Origin: Alphaproteobacteria bacterium
GTDB taxonomy: Bacteria > Pseudomonadota > Alphaproteobacteria > Rhizobiales > Beijerinckiaceae
Direction: 5' to 3'
Length of the DNA: 33,694 nucleotides
Assembly (NCBI GenBank): GCA_016869555.1
Contig: VGDY01000019.1
Location: 1 to 33,694, forward strand
Made by a program: the position numbers and the translations under genes. This document shows, piece after piece, positions 16,793 to 24,193 of this stretch; within the stretch, counting starts at the first letter, position 1, and every line of letters begins with the position of its first letter. The notes under the pieces are model-generated. The model saw nothing but the letters and a program-made list of their open reading frames with translations. It was not told where the DNA came from and ran no database searches.

Positions 16793-19820
<3,028 letters not shown>

Positions 19821-19986: not shown

Positions 19987-20036
19987 CCCCTCACCCGGCT
20001 GCTTCGCAGCCACCCTCTCCCTTTGGGAGAGGGTTA
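19987..20036 (-). repeat. REP-like palindromic element, family 1, copy D (inverted)
   Basis: Inverted partner of copy C: CCCCTCACCC, tip hairpin GGCTGC-ttc-GCAGCC, then CCCTCTCCC-ttt-GGGAGAGGG. Its outer edge abuts and supplies part of the TAA stop codon (20036-20034) of the leftward hydroxylase gene, so the element ends exactly at the lipid cluster. Confidence 0.8.
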
Positions 20037-20681
20037 CACCGCCCGTGTTCCCGGCGTGTCGTCTTTCCGATAGGCCGTGCCGAACACGTAGTCCCACCAG
20101 ATCGCGTGGACGCCGAAACCTTTCTCGGCGTCGCGGAAGTGATGCAGCATGTGCAGCCGCTTCACCATTCTGCCGAAGTCCGACTTCGGCTGGCCGTGAT
20201 GCGTCCAGAAATGCACGCAATCATAAATCACATAGCCACTGATGAAGCCGGCGAGCACCGGCCACGCGAAACTCGCGCCGAAGATCAGGCGGGCGCAGAC
20301 CAGCGCGATCAGCATGATCGGTCCCGAGAGCAGCGGCGGCATCACCAGCCGCAGCGGATCATTGGGATAGATGTGATGCACGCCGTGGATGAGGAACTGA
20401 AAGCGCGGCCCCAGTCCGAAGGGCAGCGCAAACACTGTATGAAAGAGATAGCGGTGGCCGAAATATTCGGTGAGCGTCCAGCCGATGTAGCCAATGGCGA
20501 CGCCCAGAAAGACAAGCGCCACACCGTTGAGCGCGAGCGAATAGATCACGAGGCCGAGAATGATCGGGCAATAGACGATCACCGGCGTCAGATGATGCAC
20601 GCGCGACAGCTTGTCGAGAAGGTCGCTTTCAAAGAGACGGGGCGAAGCGTCTAGCGCTTGTGTTCTTGCGTCCTGCGACAT
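20034..20681 (-). CDS. FA2H/Scs7-like fatty acid (ceramide) hydroxylase
   Basis: A 215-residue membrane di-iron enzyme of the sterol desaturase/fatty acid hydroxylase superfamily. The histidine clusters match those of the Scs7/FA2H ceramide 2-hydroxylases: His76 and His81 (GHRYLFH), His99/102/103 (HGVHH), His157/161/162 (HFWTHH) and His177/180/181 (HMLHH). Membrane segments lie at about 31-50, 54-70 and 115-155, and there is no cytochrome b5 domain, so an external electron donor is needed. Three bases separate it from the desaturase stop, making it the last gene of a four-gene operon. The predicted role is 2-hydroxylation of the amide-linked acyl chain; carotenoid or sterol relatives of this fold are less likely given the neighbours. 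Confidence 0.82.
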   Translation of the reverse strand: MSQDARTQALDASPRLFESDLLDKLSRVHHLTPVIVYCPIILGLVIYSLALNGVALVFLGVAIGYIGWTLTEYFGHRYLFHTVFALPFGLGPRFQFLIHGVHHIYPNDPLRLVMPPLLSGPIMLIALVCARLIFGASFAWPVLAGFISGYVIYDCVHFWTHHGQPKSDFGRMVKRLHMLHHFRDAEKGFGVHAIWWDYVFGTAYRKDDTPGTRAV

Positions 20682-20684
20682 GGG

Positions 20685-21677
20685 CTACTCCGCCGGCGAC
20701 AGGGCTTGCGCGTCGCGCGCGGCCTGCGTCACATTTTCCGATCGCGTTCCCAGCGAATAGGTCGGATCGAAGATGAAGGTGACGAGCAGCGCCGTCCAGG
20801 AGCGATGGCAGCGCAGATCGTCATAGAACTCCGGCGCCATCGCCTTCAGCTCGGGCAGACGGTTCCACGGGATTTCGTGAAAATCATGATGTTCGTTGTG
20901 ATAGCCGATGTTGAGCGCGAGCTTGTTCAGAGGACCGTAATAGTCGAACGTCCCCTGATCCGGCCCGAAGGCGAAATGCTCCTGCAGCCAGCGCGCGCTC
21001 AAGGGATGCAGGCCGCCGACCGAGAACCAGAAGGAAAAGAAAAGGTAGAGCAGGGCGTTCGGCCCGAATGCGAGCAGCACGAAGAGATCGAACAGGGCGA
21101 TGACGGCGATATTGATATAGGTCCAGGTTCCCCAGATCGGCACCGTTCCCTTGAGGCGCGACAGGCGCGCGAGCTGAATGACGGGAAAGAAGAAAATCCA
21201 CGCCGCCTTGCGCCAAGCGCTATTGCCGACCCATTCGACTTCCCACCGGCTCGGAATGTCGGCGTCGTAGTCATAGGCCGATAGATGCGAATGATGCTTG
21301 ATGTGATAGCAGCGAAAGCCCATCGCGGTCGGAAAGGCGTTGGGCAGATCGGCGAGGATCGCCGTCCATTTATTGGCGAGCGGGCTGTCGAAGACGCAAT
21401 TGTGAATCGCGTCGTGGATGATGACGAAATTGGCGTGATTGGCATAGGCGCCGACGCAGATCGCCATCACGAGCGACAGCCACCAATAGGAGAGGCCGAG
21501 CGAACCCAAAATCGCGGCGATGACGAGCTGACCGACGAAAATCGCCGCCGTGATCTTGAAGGTCAGCGGGTCCTTGCCGAACAATTCGCGCACCTGCGGA
21601 TATTTCTGAAGGATCAGCTTGCGCCGCTCGACATGCGAGCGGTCGGCGCCATTGGCCGTGACCGATATGCCGTTCAT
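20685..21677 (-). CDS. DEGS-like sphingolipid delta-4 desaturase
   Basis: A 330-residue integral membrane desaturase. The three histidine boxes are HDAIH (88-92), HIKHH (125-129) and HNEHH (260-264). Around them the sequence follows the eukaryotic dihydroceramide desaturase family closely: KYPQVRELFGKDP near residue 25, the NEHHDF-x-IP stretch at 261-270, PEL-x-MAPEFYDDL at 275-288 and a short tail with FDPTYS. General acyl-lipid or acyl-CoA desaturases do not share those blocks. Likely reaction: insertion of a 4,5 double bond in the long-chain base of a ceramide. Its ATG overlaps the upstream stop by four bases (ATGA), implying translational coupling. Similarity was judged by eye. Confidence 0.85.
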   Translation of the reverse strand: MNGISVTANGADRSHVERRKLILQKYPQVRELFGKDPLTFKITAAIFVGQLVIAAILGSLGLSYWWLSLVMAICVGAYANHANFVIIHDAIHNCVFDSPLANKWTAILADLPNAFPTAMGFRCYHIKHHSHLSAYDYDADIPSRWEVEWVGNSAWRKAAWIFFFPVIQLARLSRLKGTVPIWGTWTYINIAVIALFDLFVLLAFGPNALLYLFFSFWFSVGGLHPLSARWLQEHFAFGPDQGTFDYYGPLNKLALNIGYHNEHHDFHEIPWNRLPELKAMAPEFYDDLRCHRSWTALLVTFIFDPTYSLGTRSENVTQAARDAQALSPAE

Positions 21678-22891
21678 GACGTTGCATCCTGTAGCTGAAC
21701 TGCCCTGACGCCGTCGCGCATACGCATGGCCTCGCCGTCGCCGCCGCCGACCTTAAGCCGCTTTTCATAGATGCGATGAATCTTATCGACCTTGCCGCCG
21801 AACATTTCAATCGGCCGGCGCATGTCGGCGTTGCTCTCCAACACCCAGCCGGCTTCAAGATGCGGAACCGCGAATTTGGCGTAGCGCCGCCGCATCTCCT
21901 CGATCAGCGCGAGAAAAATCGCGCCGCCGGTCGCGCTTTTCTGCAGCGTCTTGCGTGTGCCAAGCAGCAGCAGCCGCGCCGATTTGAACTTATGCGTGCG
22001 GTATCGCTGAATTGCGCGCAGCCAACCGAAGGGGAACAGTCGGCCGTTGAGATCGTCGAGAATCTCGTTGAGATTGGGGAGCGCGATGGCGAAGGATTGC
22101 GGCACGCCGTCAAGCTCGACGACGATGCCGAAATCCTCGGTCACCAGAAATTGCAGCGCGTCGGCGTCGGAATCGAATTCTTCCTTGGTGAAGGGCACGA
22201 AGCCCCAATTGCCGCTCCAGCCGTCGTTGAACAATTCGGCCATCAGCGCGGTCTCGCCCTTCTTCAGGGCCTTCATGTTCAACGGCCGGAGCTTCAGGCG
22301 ATCGCGCCATTCGCGCCGCGTCGAAATGCGCGCCGGCTGCTCGATGTCCTTGCTTGAGATTTCGAAGCGATAGGACAAAAGATCTTGCGCCTTCTCATAG
22401 CCCAGCGCCTCGATATGGCGCGACAGATAGGGCGGATGCCAGGGCATGAAGAACATCGGCGTGGCGTCGAAGCCGTCGATGAGCACGCCGCACTCCTTGT
22501 TGACCGACGGCGAGAACGGTCCGTTGATCCGTTCGGCGCCCTTGGCGCGCAGCCAATCCTCGGCGGCCTGCGTCAGCGCGCGCACGACCTCGACGTCGTC
22601 GATCGCGTCGAGCGCGCCGAACTGCGCGTTGGAGGCGCCGACCGGCGTGATCCCCGGCTTATAGACCTGCGCCATGATCCGCCCGACCCATTGGCCGTCG
22701 CGGCGGGCAAGAAACTTCTGCTCCTCGACCAGCTTGTAATGCGGGTTGAGCTTATGCGCGAAGACGCTCCAGCGCTCGACGTCCAGCGGCGGCGCGAAAC
22801 CCGGCGCGCCGGCGTAGAGCAGCCGCGGCAGCCTGCAGAACGCCGCAAAACGCAGGGGGCCATCGACCGGAAGAATCTCGATCCGCGCCAT
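21674..22891 (-). CDS. GNAT-fold N-acyltransferase, ceramide synthase-like
   Basis: A 405-residue cytosolic protein of the large GNAT-like family with the block GPFSPSVNKECGVLIDGFD (about 125-143), followed by MPWHPPYLSRHIEALGYEK. Proteins of this type in Caulobacter were shown to act as bacterial ceramide synthase (bCerS), acylating 3-ketosphinganine on its amino group. Placement between an Spt-type gene and a DEGS-like desaturase supports the same job here. The ATG at 22891 has AGGA about nine bases upstream on the minus strand; a TTG two codons earlier is unlikely. The alternative is a generic uncharacterised acyltransferase. The ceramide role is inference from context and remembered family resemblance. 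Confidence 0.72.
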   Translation of the reverse strand: MARIEILPVDGPLRFAAFCRLPRLLYAGAPGFAPPLDVERWSVFAHKLNPHYKLVEEQKFLARRDGQWVGRIMAQVYKPGITPVGASNAQFGALDAIDDVEVVRALTQAAEDWLRAKGAERINGPFSPSVNKECGVLIDGFDATPMFFMPWHPPYLSRHIEALGYEKAQDLLSYRFEISSKDIEQPARISTRREWRDRLKLRPLNMKALKKGETALMAELFNDGWSGNWGFVPFTKEEFDSDADALQFLVTEDFGIVVELDGVPQSFAIALPNLNEILDDLNGRLFPFGWLRAIQRYRTHKFKSARLLLLGTRKTLQKSATGGAIFLALIEEMRRRYAKFAVPHLEAGWVLESNADMRRPIEMFGGKVDKIHRIYEKRLKVGGGDGEAMRMRDGVRAVQLQDATS

Positions 22892-22954
22892 ATGCAAGTC
22901 CTAGCGGCCGCAGGGCCTAATCGAAAGGGCCAAAGTGACGCGGGCGGCGGCCGC

Positions 22955-24193
22955 TCAGCCGCCCGCCATCGCCGCGGCGACGATCTGATGCGCCTCTTCG
23001 GTCACCGGCGGCATGTCGCGCAGCGTCTGGATCACGCCGCGAATCTCCGCCTCATTGTGATTGGCGGAGAAGAAGAAGCGCAATCTCGGCCCGTCCTTCG
23101 GCACGCCGATGCGCACCACCGGCGGCACGTAATAGCCGTTCTCCAGCAAATGCTGAGACGCCCACATCGTCTCGACGTCGCTCGAGAACAGGATTGGCAC
23201 GACGCCGCGACCGATCGCCGGACCGGTGGAGAATCCCGCCTCATGCGCGACGGTGCGGAAAAGTTCGGCGTTGCTCGCCAGTTTGGCGATGCGCCAGGTC
23301 TCTTCCTGCATCAGCCGCAGCGCGGTGCGCGCGGCGGCGAGAATCACTGGCGACAGGCCGACGCTGTAGACGAAGCCCGGCAGCGTATAGCGAAACCAGT
23401 CGATGACCTGCTTCTTGCCGCAGACATAGCCGCCGCAGGAGGCGAGAGTCTTCGACATGGTGCCGACGATGAGGTCGATGCGCGCCGGATCGACCCCCTG
23501 ATGTTCGGCGAGGCCGCGCCCCGTCTCGCCCAGGACGCCGAGCGAATGCGCTTCGTCGACCAGCAGCCAGACCTGATATTTTTCCTTGATATCGAGGAGC
23601 CGCGGCAGATCGGCGGTGTCGCCGTCCATGCTGTAGACGCCTTCGACGACGATCAGCACATTGCGATATTTCTCGCGATCGCGCGCCAGCAGATGGTCGA
23701 GATGGTCGAAGTCGTTATGGTTGAATTTCTCGACATGGGCCGGCGCGCCGTCGGCGCCGGCGACGATGCTGTTATGGGCGAGTTCGTCGATGAAGATCGC
23801 GTCGCGCTTGCCGCTCATCAGCCAGGCGATCGTCGTGACATTGGAGAGGTAGCCGGAGACCAGCGTCAGCGCACTTTCCATGCCGAGGAATTGGGCGATC
23901 TCCGCTTCGAACGGCCGATGGGTCGTGCGCTCGCCGCCGACGAGCCGCGAGGCCAGCGCGCCGATGCCGATGCCGTCGATCTCGCGTTTCGCCTCCTCGC
24001 GAATCCGAGGGTGATTCGCGAGGCCGAGATAGTCGTAATTGGCGAAGCTGACGAAATGCTTGCCCTGCGCTTCGAATTCGGCCCGCAATCTGTCGATCTG
24101 AGCGAAAAACGGATCGCTGAACTCCAGCAAGGCGTTGCCGGCGAAACGAAAGCGCCGCGCCGCGTAATCTTCCAGGCTCTTATGCTTCGTCAC
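22955..24193 (-). CDS. Alpha-oxoamine synthase, probable serine palmitoyltransferase
   Basis: A 412-residue PLP enzyme of the alpha-oxoamine synthase family (Spt, BioF, Kbl, HemA). Seen: His140 stacking position (ELAHNS), Asp213 and His216 (DEAHSLG), and the Schiff-base Lys248 (GTMSKTLAS). Condensation of serine with a long acyl thioester to 3-ketosphinganine is the best fit, because the three genes behind it look like ceramide-modifying enzymes and no biotin or heme genes are near. Motifs alone cannot exclude another oxoamine product. Length fits soluble bacterial Spt (about 400-420). The start is GTG at 24193 with GGA a few bases upstream. It is first in the operon and divergent from ccmA. 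No acyl carrier protein or ceramide reductase gene is in the window. Confidence 0.75.
   Translation of the reverse strand: MTKHKSLEDYAARRFRFAGNALLEFSDPFFAQIDRLRAEFEAQGKHFVSFANYDYLGLANHPRIREEAKREIDGIGIGALASRLVGGERTTHRPFEAEIAQFLGMESALTLVSGYLSNVTTIAWLMSGKRDAIFIDELAHNSIVAGADGAPAHVEKFNHNDFDHLDHLLARDREKYRNVLIVVEGVYSMDGDTADLPRLLDIKEKYQVWLLVDEAHSLGVLGETGRGLAEHQGVDPARIDLIVGTMSKTLASCGGYVCGKKQVIDWFRYTLPGFVYSVGLSPVILAAARTALRLMQEETWRIAKLASNAELFRTVAHEAGFSTGPAIGRGVVPILFSSDVETMWASQHLLENGYYVPPVVRIGVPKDGPRLRFFFSANHNEAEIRGVIQTLRDMPPVTEEAHQIVAAAMAGG

Follow-up and report, generated by a model that had tools for sequence, protein, structure and literature searches.

A candidate operon for desaturated and hydroxylated ceramide in a presumed Methylocystis genome

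A leftward four-gene operon was analysed in a 33,694-nucleotide stretch of alphaproteobacterial DNA (hereafter the window; GenBank contig VGDY01000019.1 of assembly GCA_016869555.1, our contig C19), which encodes a putative alpha-oxoamine synthase (AOS), an N-acyltransferase like the bacterial ceramide synthase bCerS (hereafter CerS-like), a DEGS-type desaturase and an FA2H/Scs7-type hydroxylase. It is best read as the core of a non-canonical ceramide pathway of bacteria that includes delta-4 desaturation and 2-hydroxylation and probably also glycosylation, and we think it fairly probable that this operon and a second one in the same genome together make a decorated ceramide, whose double bond and extra hydroxyl appear to be those normally known from animals, plants and fungi. 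The reactions, the amino acid used, the step order, the tailoring positions and the final lipid proposed below are deduced from gene content, homology, conserved neighbourhood and co-occurrence. The host is taken to be Methylocystis, a type II methanotroph, and of eight public records with a desaturase 92–98% identical to that of the window, seven are titled Methylocystis and one Alphaproteobacteria. The four genes are as follows (genomes and loci are numbered G and L below).

22955..24193, minus strand: alpha-oxoamine synthase P0001 (gene 1), 412 aa, GTG start
21674..22891, minus strand: bCerS-like tandem-GNAT N-acyltransferase P0002 (gene 2), 405 aa from ATG
20685..21677, minus strand: sphingolipid delta-4 desaturase-like protein P0003, DEGS type (gene 3), 330 aa
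20034..20681, minus strand: FA2H/Scs7-type fatty acid 2-hydroxylase-like protein P0004 (gene 4), 215 aa

The operon, its acyltransferase and its tailoring genes

The open reading frames (ORFs) bear out the original description of a leftward four-gene operon in position and spacing, with a 63-base gap, a 4-base overlap and a 3-base gap between consecutive genes from the first to the fourth; an in-frame TTG lies 6 bases upstream of the P0002 ATG. The order of genes 2–4 was kept in all 32 other genus loci examined, with gene 1 ahead of them in 28 and the remaining four (~4 kb each) ending before gene 1, and because the gene order is kept across these loci, the arrangement is more than chance. Counting the window's own, 36 of 37 genus genomes have the desaturase gene, G023 (89% complete) being the exception; of 24 genomes from the order's other families, one has it. 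The records of Methylocystis rosea SV97 and Methylosinus sporium DSM 17706 contain the full set of four genes. A promoter scan gave a single match, on the other strand (0.9 expected), and a terminator scan found 8 terminator-like sites versus 4.2 expected.

By its domains P0003 belongs to the DEGS type, as had been predicted: it carries at its N-terminus the Lipid_DES domain PF08557 (36.3 bits, cut-off 23), which according to Pfam is the sphingolipid delta-4 desaturase domain, together with the FA_desaturase domain PF00487 (81.4 bits, cut-off 29.7) and three histidine boxes, the histidines of which are invariant in 34 aligned sequences. No solved relative was found for it by sequence in the PDB at E ≤ 0.1, and the top fold matches of its structure model (mean pLDDT 80) were two chains, of identity not given, from chloroplast FtsHi motor complexes (4.4e-5 and 5.2e-4, TM 0.58), followed by AlkB at 0.022. 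Within the family the desaturase occurs in 28 of 119 genomes and 9 of 43 genera, and in a class-wide sample of 143 genomes only in the window's own. In a tree of 34 of 81 desaturase sequences (window included, eukaryotic sequences left out), the alphaproteobacterial rows were set apart from all others (100/99). A 52% identical desaturase stands alone at L032 in a genome of another family (G055), beside genes that look by eye like an RND pump and an acyl-CoA dehydrogenase; AOS, CerS and hydroxylase genes were not found in that 14 kb stretch.

The FA2H/Scs7 assignment of P0004 stood as well, on the basis of its PF04116 domain (59.1 bits, cut-off 31), ten histidines invariant in 19 sequences in the Scs7 pattern, and a PDB match to the yeast-type Scs7 4zr1, a ceramide fatty acid hydroxylase (2e-24); two Scs7 entries were its only solved relatives at E ≤ 0.1. 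It is predicted to comprise just the FA2H-type catalytic domain, with no cytochrome b5 domain found by Pfam and an alignment that covers the Scs7 chain (392 residues) from residue 190 onwards.

Both families leave room for other tailoring positions on a ceramide backbone, the desaturase working like DEGS2 as a C4-hydroxylase, or else on the acyl chain, and the PF04116 protein hydroxylating the long-chain base (Sur2-like) and not acyl C2, an alternative that we regard as unlikely. Sur2-like hydroxylation of the long-chain base is known and PF04116 covers several specificities, but the solved relatives of P0004 are all Scs7 and its histidines are conserved. DEGS2 has been described as both desaturase and hydroxylase (PMC10499023; this and the other papers cited are drawn on from part of their text), against which stands the Pfam description of Lipid_DES as a sphingolipid delta-4 desaturase domain.

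P0002 had no match among Pfam or NCBIfam models. For comparison, a canonical sample was taken from the 22 of 143 class genomes having a serine palmitoyltransferase (Spt) match of at least 450 bits, and regions were fetched around 20 of the 22. A gene 34–40% identical to P0002 lay within 12 of these 20 regions (two matches being cut by the stretch end). The region L057 has the order aasR-cerR-acpR-spt-hydroxylase-cerS, in which spt alone is confirmed by a model (634 bits, cut-off 500) and the other names follow from order and size in PMC11324152, not from comparison with the tested Caulobacter proteins. A P0002 model built from 44 sequences (mean pLDDT 84.2) had tandem GNATs as best Foldseek matches (top 2.8e-12). 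P0002 is therefore predicted to have a GNAT fold and, by sequence, is homologous to the CerS-like gene near canonical Spt, in agreement with its first description as a bCerS-like GNAT protein. In a CerS tree (27 rows, no outgroup) the window and canonical rows were intermingled with weak deep branches, and in its own genome P0002 is the sole match of its kind at 1e-20. Single parts of the operon have bacterial precedent: in 6 of the 20 canonical regions the CerS-like gene has a hydroxylase-family gene no more than 213 bases away, and FA2H-like hydroxylases of myxobacteria are reported to be functional (PMC10002949).

An oxoamine synthase outside the Spt clade

P0001 was assigned to the pyridoxal phosphate-dependent alpha-oxoamine synthases by its aminotransferase class I/II domain (PF00155, 2.7e-46) and the family motifs GTMSK and RLRFF, which we take to hold the catalytic lysine and the carboxylate arginine, respectively. 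In the PDB, Spt (207 bits) scored barely higher than Kbl (200 bits). Among NCBIfam models, three for Spt gave 284, 269 and 196 bits, each under its cut-off, the last being NF047603 (195.9 bits, cut-off 670), and bioF (TIGR00858) gave 338.9 bits against a cut-off of 426.45, so that P0001 was rejected as a BioF over cut-off. Against NF047603, 22 of the 143 class genomes reached at least 450 bits and the next score was 263; the best protein of the window's own genome, at 213.5 bits, was HemA.

In an AOS tree of 51 rows, the window clade (100/99) was placed with a second AOS group (100/99) and then with the three BioF-like rows (95/90), which themselves score 333–419 bits against the bioF cut-off of 426. 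It was apart from HemA, Kbl and Spt, the Spt rows, including 3a2b (presumably the Sphingobacterium Spt), falling on another branch (99/95), and branches of 95/90, 98/91 and 99/95 separate the window clade from Spt. The prediction that the synthase is Spt was consequently abandoned, as the tree puts it outside the Spt clade, towards BioF but in a clade by itself. Grouping with BioF, Kbl or HemA had been named beforehand as a result that would refute the pathway, and it was found in part, because P0001 lies on the BioF side and yet in its own clade. The genome encodes two further full AOS genes, HemA (622 bits, cut-off 339) and a BioF-like one (333.7 bits, under the bioF cut-off), and therefore, together with the tree, P0001 is neither a canonical Spt nor the sole BioF candidate. 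All 30 family genomes with a P0001-type AOS also have the CerS-like gene. P0001 is proposed to be a long-chain-base synthase outside the canonical Spt clade.

If the synthase used alanine or glycine, the product would have no C1 hydroxyl and would be a 1-deoxy or 1-deoxymethyl ceramide. BioF and Kbl use these amino acids, and both the tree position and the best-scoring model of P0001 point towards BioF, but the pathway is accompanied by a ceramide glucosyltransferase-like GT21 protein (see below), which would normally require the C1 hydroxyl; the Verrucomicrobiota loci, in which a gene resembling those for CDP-alcohol transferases separates AOS from CerS, carry the same implication for that group. 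In favour of a deoxy lipid, 1-deoxyceramide groups account for 2–8% of the lipids classified from euxinic Black Sea water, with bacteria suggested as the source (PMC11334938). Overall we hold the alanine or glycine reading to be quite improbable and prefer serine as the substrate.

The second AOS is paralogous to P0001 (~43% identical) and can have a second CerS relative beside it (~30% identical; L156 8746-11411 in G274 and L157 8222-11332 in G208). It scored 297–343 bits in 23 family genomes, and a CerS relative adjoins it in five of them (G208, G239, G264, G274, G292), none being adjacent at 1e-20 in the other 18. At both L156 and L157 a gene nearby looks by eye like a CDP-alcohol transferase.

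A second operon and co-occurrence across the family

Genes for a ceramide reductase and an acyl carrier protein (ACP), missing from the window, had been expected elsewhere or replaced, and both turned out to apply: no CerR orthologue was found in the genome, but a second operon holds a dedicated-looking ACP and a short-chain dehydrogenase/reductase (SDR). It was recognized from related loci, where a recurrent block on the opposite strand beside AOS-CerS-desaturase comprises an ACP, a FabF-like ketosynthase, two hotdog proteins (one MaoC), an SDR, a GT2 glycosyltransferase and sometimes a GT21. The block stands together with AOS, CerS and desaturase in eight loci (L078, L084, L092, L094, L096, L097, L099, L103), and GT21 and the hydroxylase are both present in L078 and L084 and both absent in the other six, a small, suggestive pattern. 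The window's own genome has the whole block.

Contig C4, ~46.5–52.2 kb: second operon, whole block including GT21

The ACP is high-scoring in all 19 genus genomes searched, own included, and weak in 5 of 12 others. The SDR carries the GxxxGxG and YxxxK motifs, which are general to SDRs and are listed for ketosphinganine reductases (PMC9278070), and its best PDB and NCBIfam matches were unspecific SDRs. The GT21 protein, P0011, is classed by sequence with the GT21 ceramide glucosyltransferases through PF13506 (154.8 bits, cut-off 21.7) and similarity to the solved ceramide glucosyltransferase 26qf (1.6e-34). An identity of P0011 as HpnI was rejected, because another gene of the genome scores higher against HpnI (190 versus 155 bits); neither reaches the cut-off of 310.

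For the co-occurrence analysis in 119 family genomes, thresholds (AOS ≥400 bits, CerS ≥240, ACP ≥100, desaturase E ≤ 1e-20) were chosen once the gaps in the scores were known. Strong matches were obtained for AOS in 30 genomes, CerS in 31, desaturase in 28 and ACP in 30, with all four in 27 and any of them in 34, and the one-sided Fisher p was below 1e-18 for every gene pair. AOS had matched in 64 genomes at 1e-50, of which the 30 at ≥400 bits were counted; weaker matches of CerS (G251, G264, G278, G292) and of ACP (G211, G222, G229, G260, G309) were counted as misses, and G222 has CerS without AOS. Because the genomes are related and the thresholds were set after inspection, the co-occurrence serves as support and not as a test.

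It is unlikely, in our estimate, that the second operon serves a glycolipid or fatty acid pathway of its own, with ceramide made via the housekeeping ACP and an unlinked reductase. Its ketosynthase, reductase and dehydratase genes are those of fatty acid synthesis as well, it lies 39–168 kb from the first operon in nine and 932 kb in one of ten Methylocystis genomes, and the ACP occurs without AOS in three genomes; against these stand the direct linkage in eight related loci, the co-occurrence in 27 genomes and the arrangement in G260, a distant genus of the family, where AOS overlaps an SDR gene by 4 bases and ACP and ketosynthase come after CerS. G223 has an SDR-like match on the opposite strand, placed between its AOS and CerS genes. 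An ORF near the AOS-SDR and CerS-ACP-ketosynthase genes of G260 (L153 5953-7032) resembles myo-inositol-1-phosphate synthase by eye.

A number of observations weigh against a joint ceramide pathway of the two operons. P0001 was rejected as a canonical Spt by the tree and the Spt model scores, and its best-scoring model is bioF, though under cut-off. No CerR orthologue was found in the window's own genome with the query P0005 (itself named by context and a weak HpnA match), the best score of 78 bits being no better than generic epimerases, so this candidate was rejected; the same query gave 229 and 237 bits in two genomes of the order's other families and a partial 127 in a third. At 1e-5, neither CerR nor AasR was found in any of 38 alphaproteobacterial desaturase loci and AcpR was found in one, versus 17, 16 and 20, respectively, of the 20 canonical regions, where CerS, CerR, AcpR and AasR were named by context and not against tested Caulobacter proteins. 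Ordinary fatty acid synthesis could account for the SDR and ketosynthase, and the two operons are unlinked in Methylocystis, with 39–932 kb between them in the ten genomes that have both on a single contig (39–168 kb in G001, G002, G004, G005, G006, G007, G009, G010 and G021; 932 kb in G025). The family genomes are related, so the co-occurrence counts are not independent; ACP stands alone in G232, G269 and G297, AOS lacks a strong ACP match in G223, G260 and G299 (G260 having the weaker one beside CerS), and the desaturase is absent from G223 and G260, which do have AOS and CerS. The draft assembly (3.95 Mb) has an estimated contamination of 8.6%; both operons are also present in its relatives. 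Among the open-licence titles listed, no report of Methylocystis sphingolipids was found.

Elsewhere in the window, a BRCT-domain protein (PF00533, 8.7e-13) is encoded at 19152-19820 on the plus strand, directly after the ORF 16814-19189, which looks by eye like a DNA ligase and whose C-terminus resembles another copy of the BRCT domain.

Related loci, proposed pathway and known systems

In a wider scan, the best 80 of at least 545 confirmed desaturase matches were examined as loci, of which 38 were alphaproteobacterial by title or tree (two titled Proteobacteria only), 28 from Verrucomicrobiota and 14 from Bacteroidota. Acidobacteria were dropped as a third phylum, as the desaturase tree places the single locus so titled inside Verrucomicrobiota, which makes misbinning probable. 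The 28 Verrucomicrobiota loci, many on short contigs, contained the hydroxylase in 27, AOS in 23 and CerS in 18 cases; of five resolved gene by gene, four had the order desaturase-hydroxylase-AOS-CDP-alcohol transferase-CerS and L141 differed. Their AOS groups with Spt, weakly (93/78). The gene between AOS and CerS in L106, L122, L129 and L104 resembles a CDP-alcohol phosphatidyltransferase (by PF01066 in L122 and by eye in the others), and in L122 a myo-inositol-1-phosphate synthase gene (PF01658) is next to CerS; these genes therefore suggest that soil Verrucomicrobiota may make inositol-phosphoceramide.

In all 14 Bacteroidota loci (L105, L110, L115, L117, L118 and nine more), a DEGS-type desaturase was found without AOS, CerS or hydroxylase on the fetched stretch. 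Such solitary desaturases, there and in G055, would agree with an amide lipid other than a sphingolipid (an N-acyl aminoketone or amino alcohol), with the desaturase and hydroxylase acting on ordinary fatty acids, and so would the non-canonical AOS. Speaking against it are the CerS relationship, the Lipid_DES domain, GT21 and the recurrence of the desaturase-hydroxylase-AOS-CerS association in two phyla, and we give this explanation little credence compared with a ceramide.

In the ceramide pathway that we favour, the ACP would carry a long-chain acyl group that the second operon's ketosynthase and dehydratases supply or extend. By condensation with an amino acid, for which serine is the likeliest candidate, the AOS would turn this group into a 3-keto long-chain base. 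The SDR would reduce the ketone, a KDSR-like step in place of the periplasmic CerR, before or after the GNAT CerS N-acylates the long-chain base. The 4,5 double bond would come from the desaturase, the hydroxyl at C2 of the N-acyl chain from the hydroxylase, and a sugar from GT21, perhaps with GT2. Both tailoring enzyme families need O2 and an electron donor, the latter presumably encoded elsewhere.

With the Caulobacter-type pathway (aasR, cerR, acpR, spt, cerS) the Methylocystis genes share an oxoamine synthase, an ACP and a CerS relative, and the hydroxylase-family gene beside CerS in 6 of 20 canonical regions is a further likeness; they differ in that the AOS falls outside the Spt clade, no CerR was found and a desaturase is present, which none of the 20 canonical regions has (one of them only 3 kb). 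In C. crescentus, Spt and bCerS are cytoplasmic and CerR is periplasmic (PMC11087976), and CC_0202, a gene of the DesA family, is credited with acyl hydroxylation (PMC11324152). The Bacteroides pathway likewise uses an SDR-type ketone reductase (BT_0972 KDSR, PMC9278070), but with a Bacteroidota Spt, and the one such Spt in our tree (3a2b) groups with the proteobacterial Spt. The myxobacterial FA2H-like 2-hydroxylases are bacterial FA2H relatives reported to be functional, set beside P0004 by description and not by sequence, and no association with a delta-4 desaturase is mentioned in the part of PMC10002949 drawn on here. Compared with the eukaryotic pathway (SPT, KDSR, CerS, DEGS1, FA2H/Scs7, UGCG), the desaturase, hydroxylase and GT21 match its domains or solved structures and the SDR is in the KDSR superfamily, whereas the GNAT CerS, the ACP module, the b5-less hydroxylase and the AOS of another clade are different; all trees were built without eukaryotic sequences. 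Eukaryotic CerS is a membrane protein and not a GNAT. The open-licence titles and abstracts listed did not contradict the earlier remark that no bacterial operon with both tailoring steps had been described.

More tentatively, at somewhat less than even chances, type II methanotrophs and their Beijerinckiaceae relatives may make 2-hydroxy, delta-4-unsaturated glycosylceramides like the cerebrosides of plants and animals, in which an independently recruited AOS, an own ACP module and an SDR replace Spt-AcpR-AasR-CerR, and the desaturase-hydroxylase pair is shared with soil Verrucomicrobiota. If the operon works as proposed, a eukaryote-type double bond, hydroxyl and perhaps sugar would occur in bacteria, among them methane oxidisers and soil Verrucomicrobiota, which would bear on lipid biomarkers of methanotrophy and on the source of unsaturated ceramides in nature. 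About half of the ceramide structures in oxygen-poor to oxygen-free Black Sea water have one double-bond equivalent in the base (PMC11334938). The finding would also bear on the origin of the eukaryotic DEGS, FA2H and UGCG and provide simpler models for membrane enzymes of these types, and it suggests that searches based on Spt and CerR would overlook such producers.

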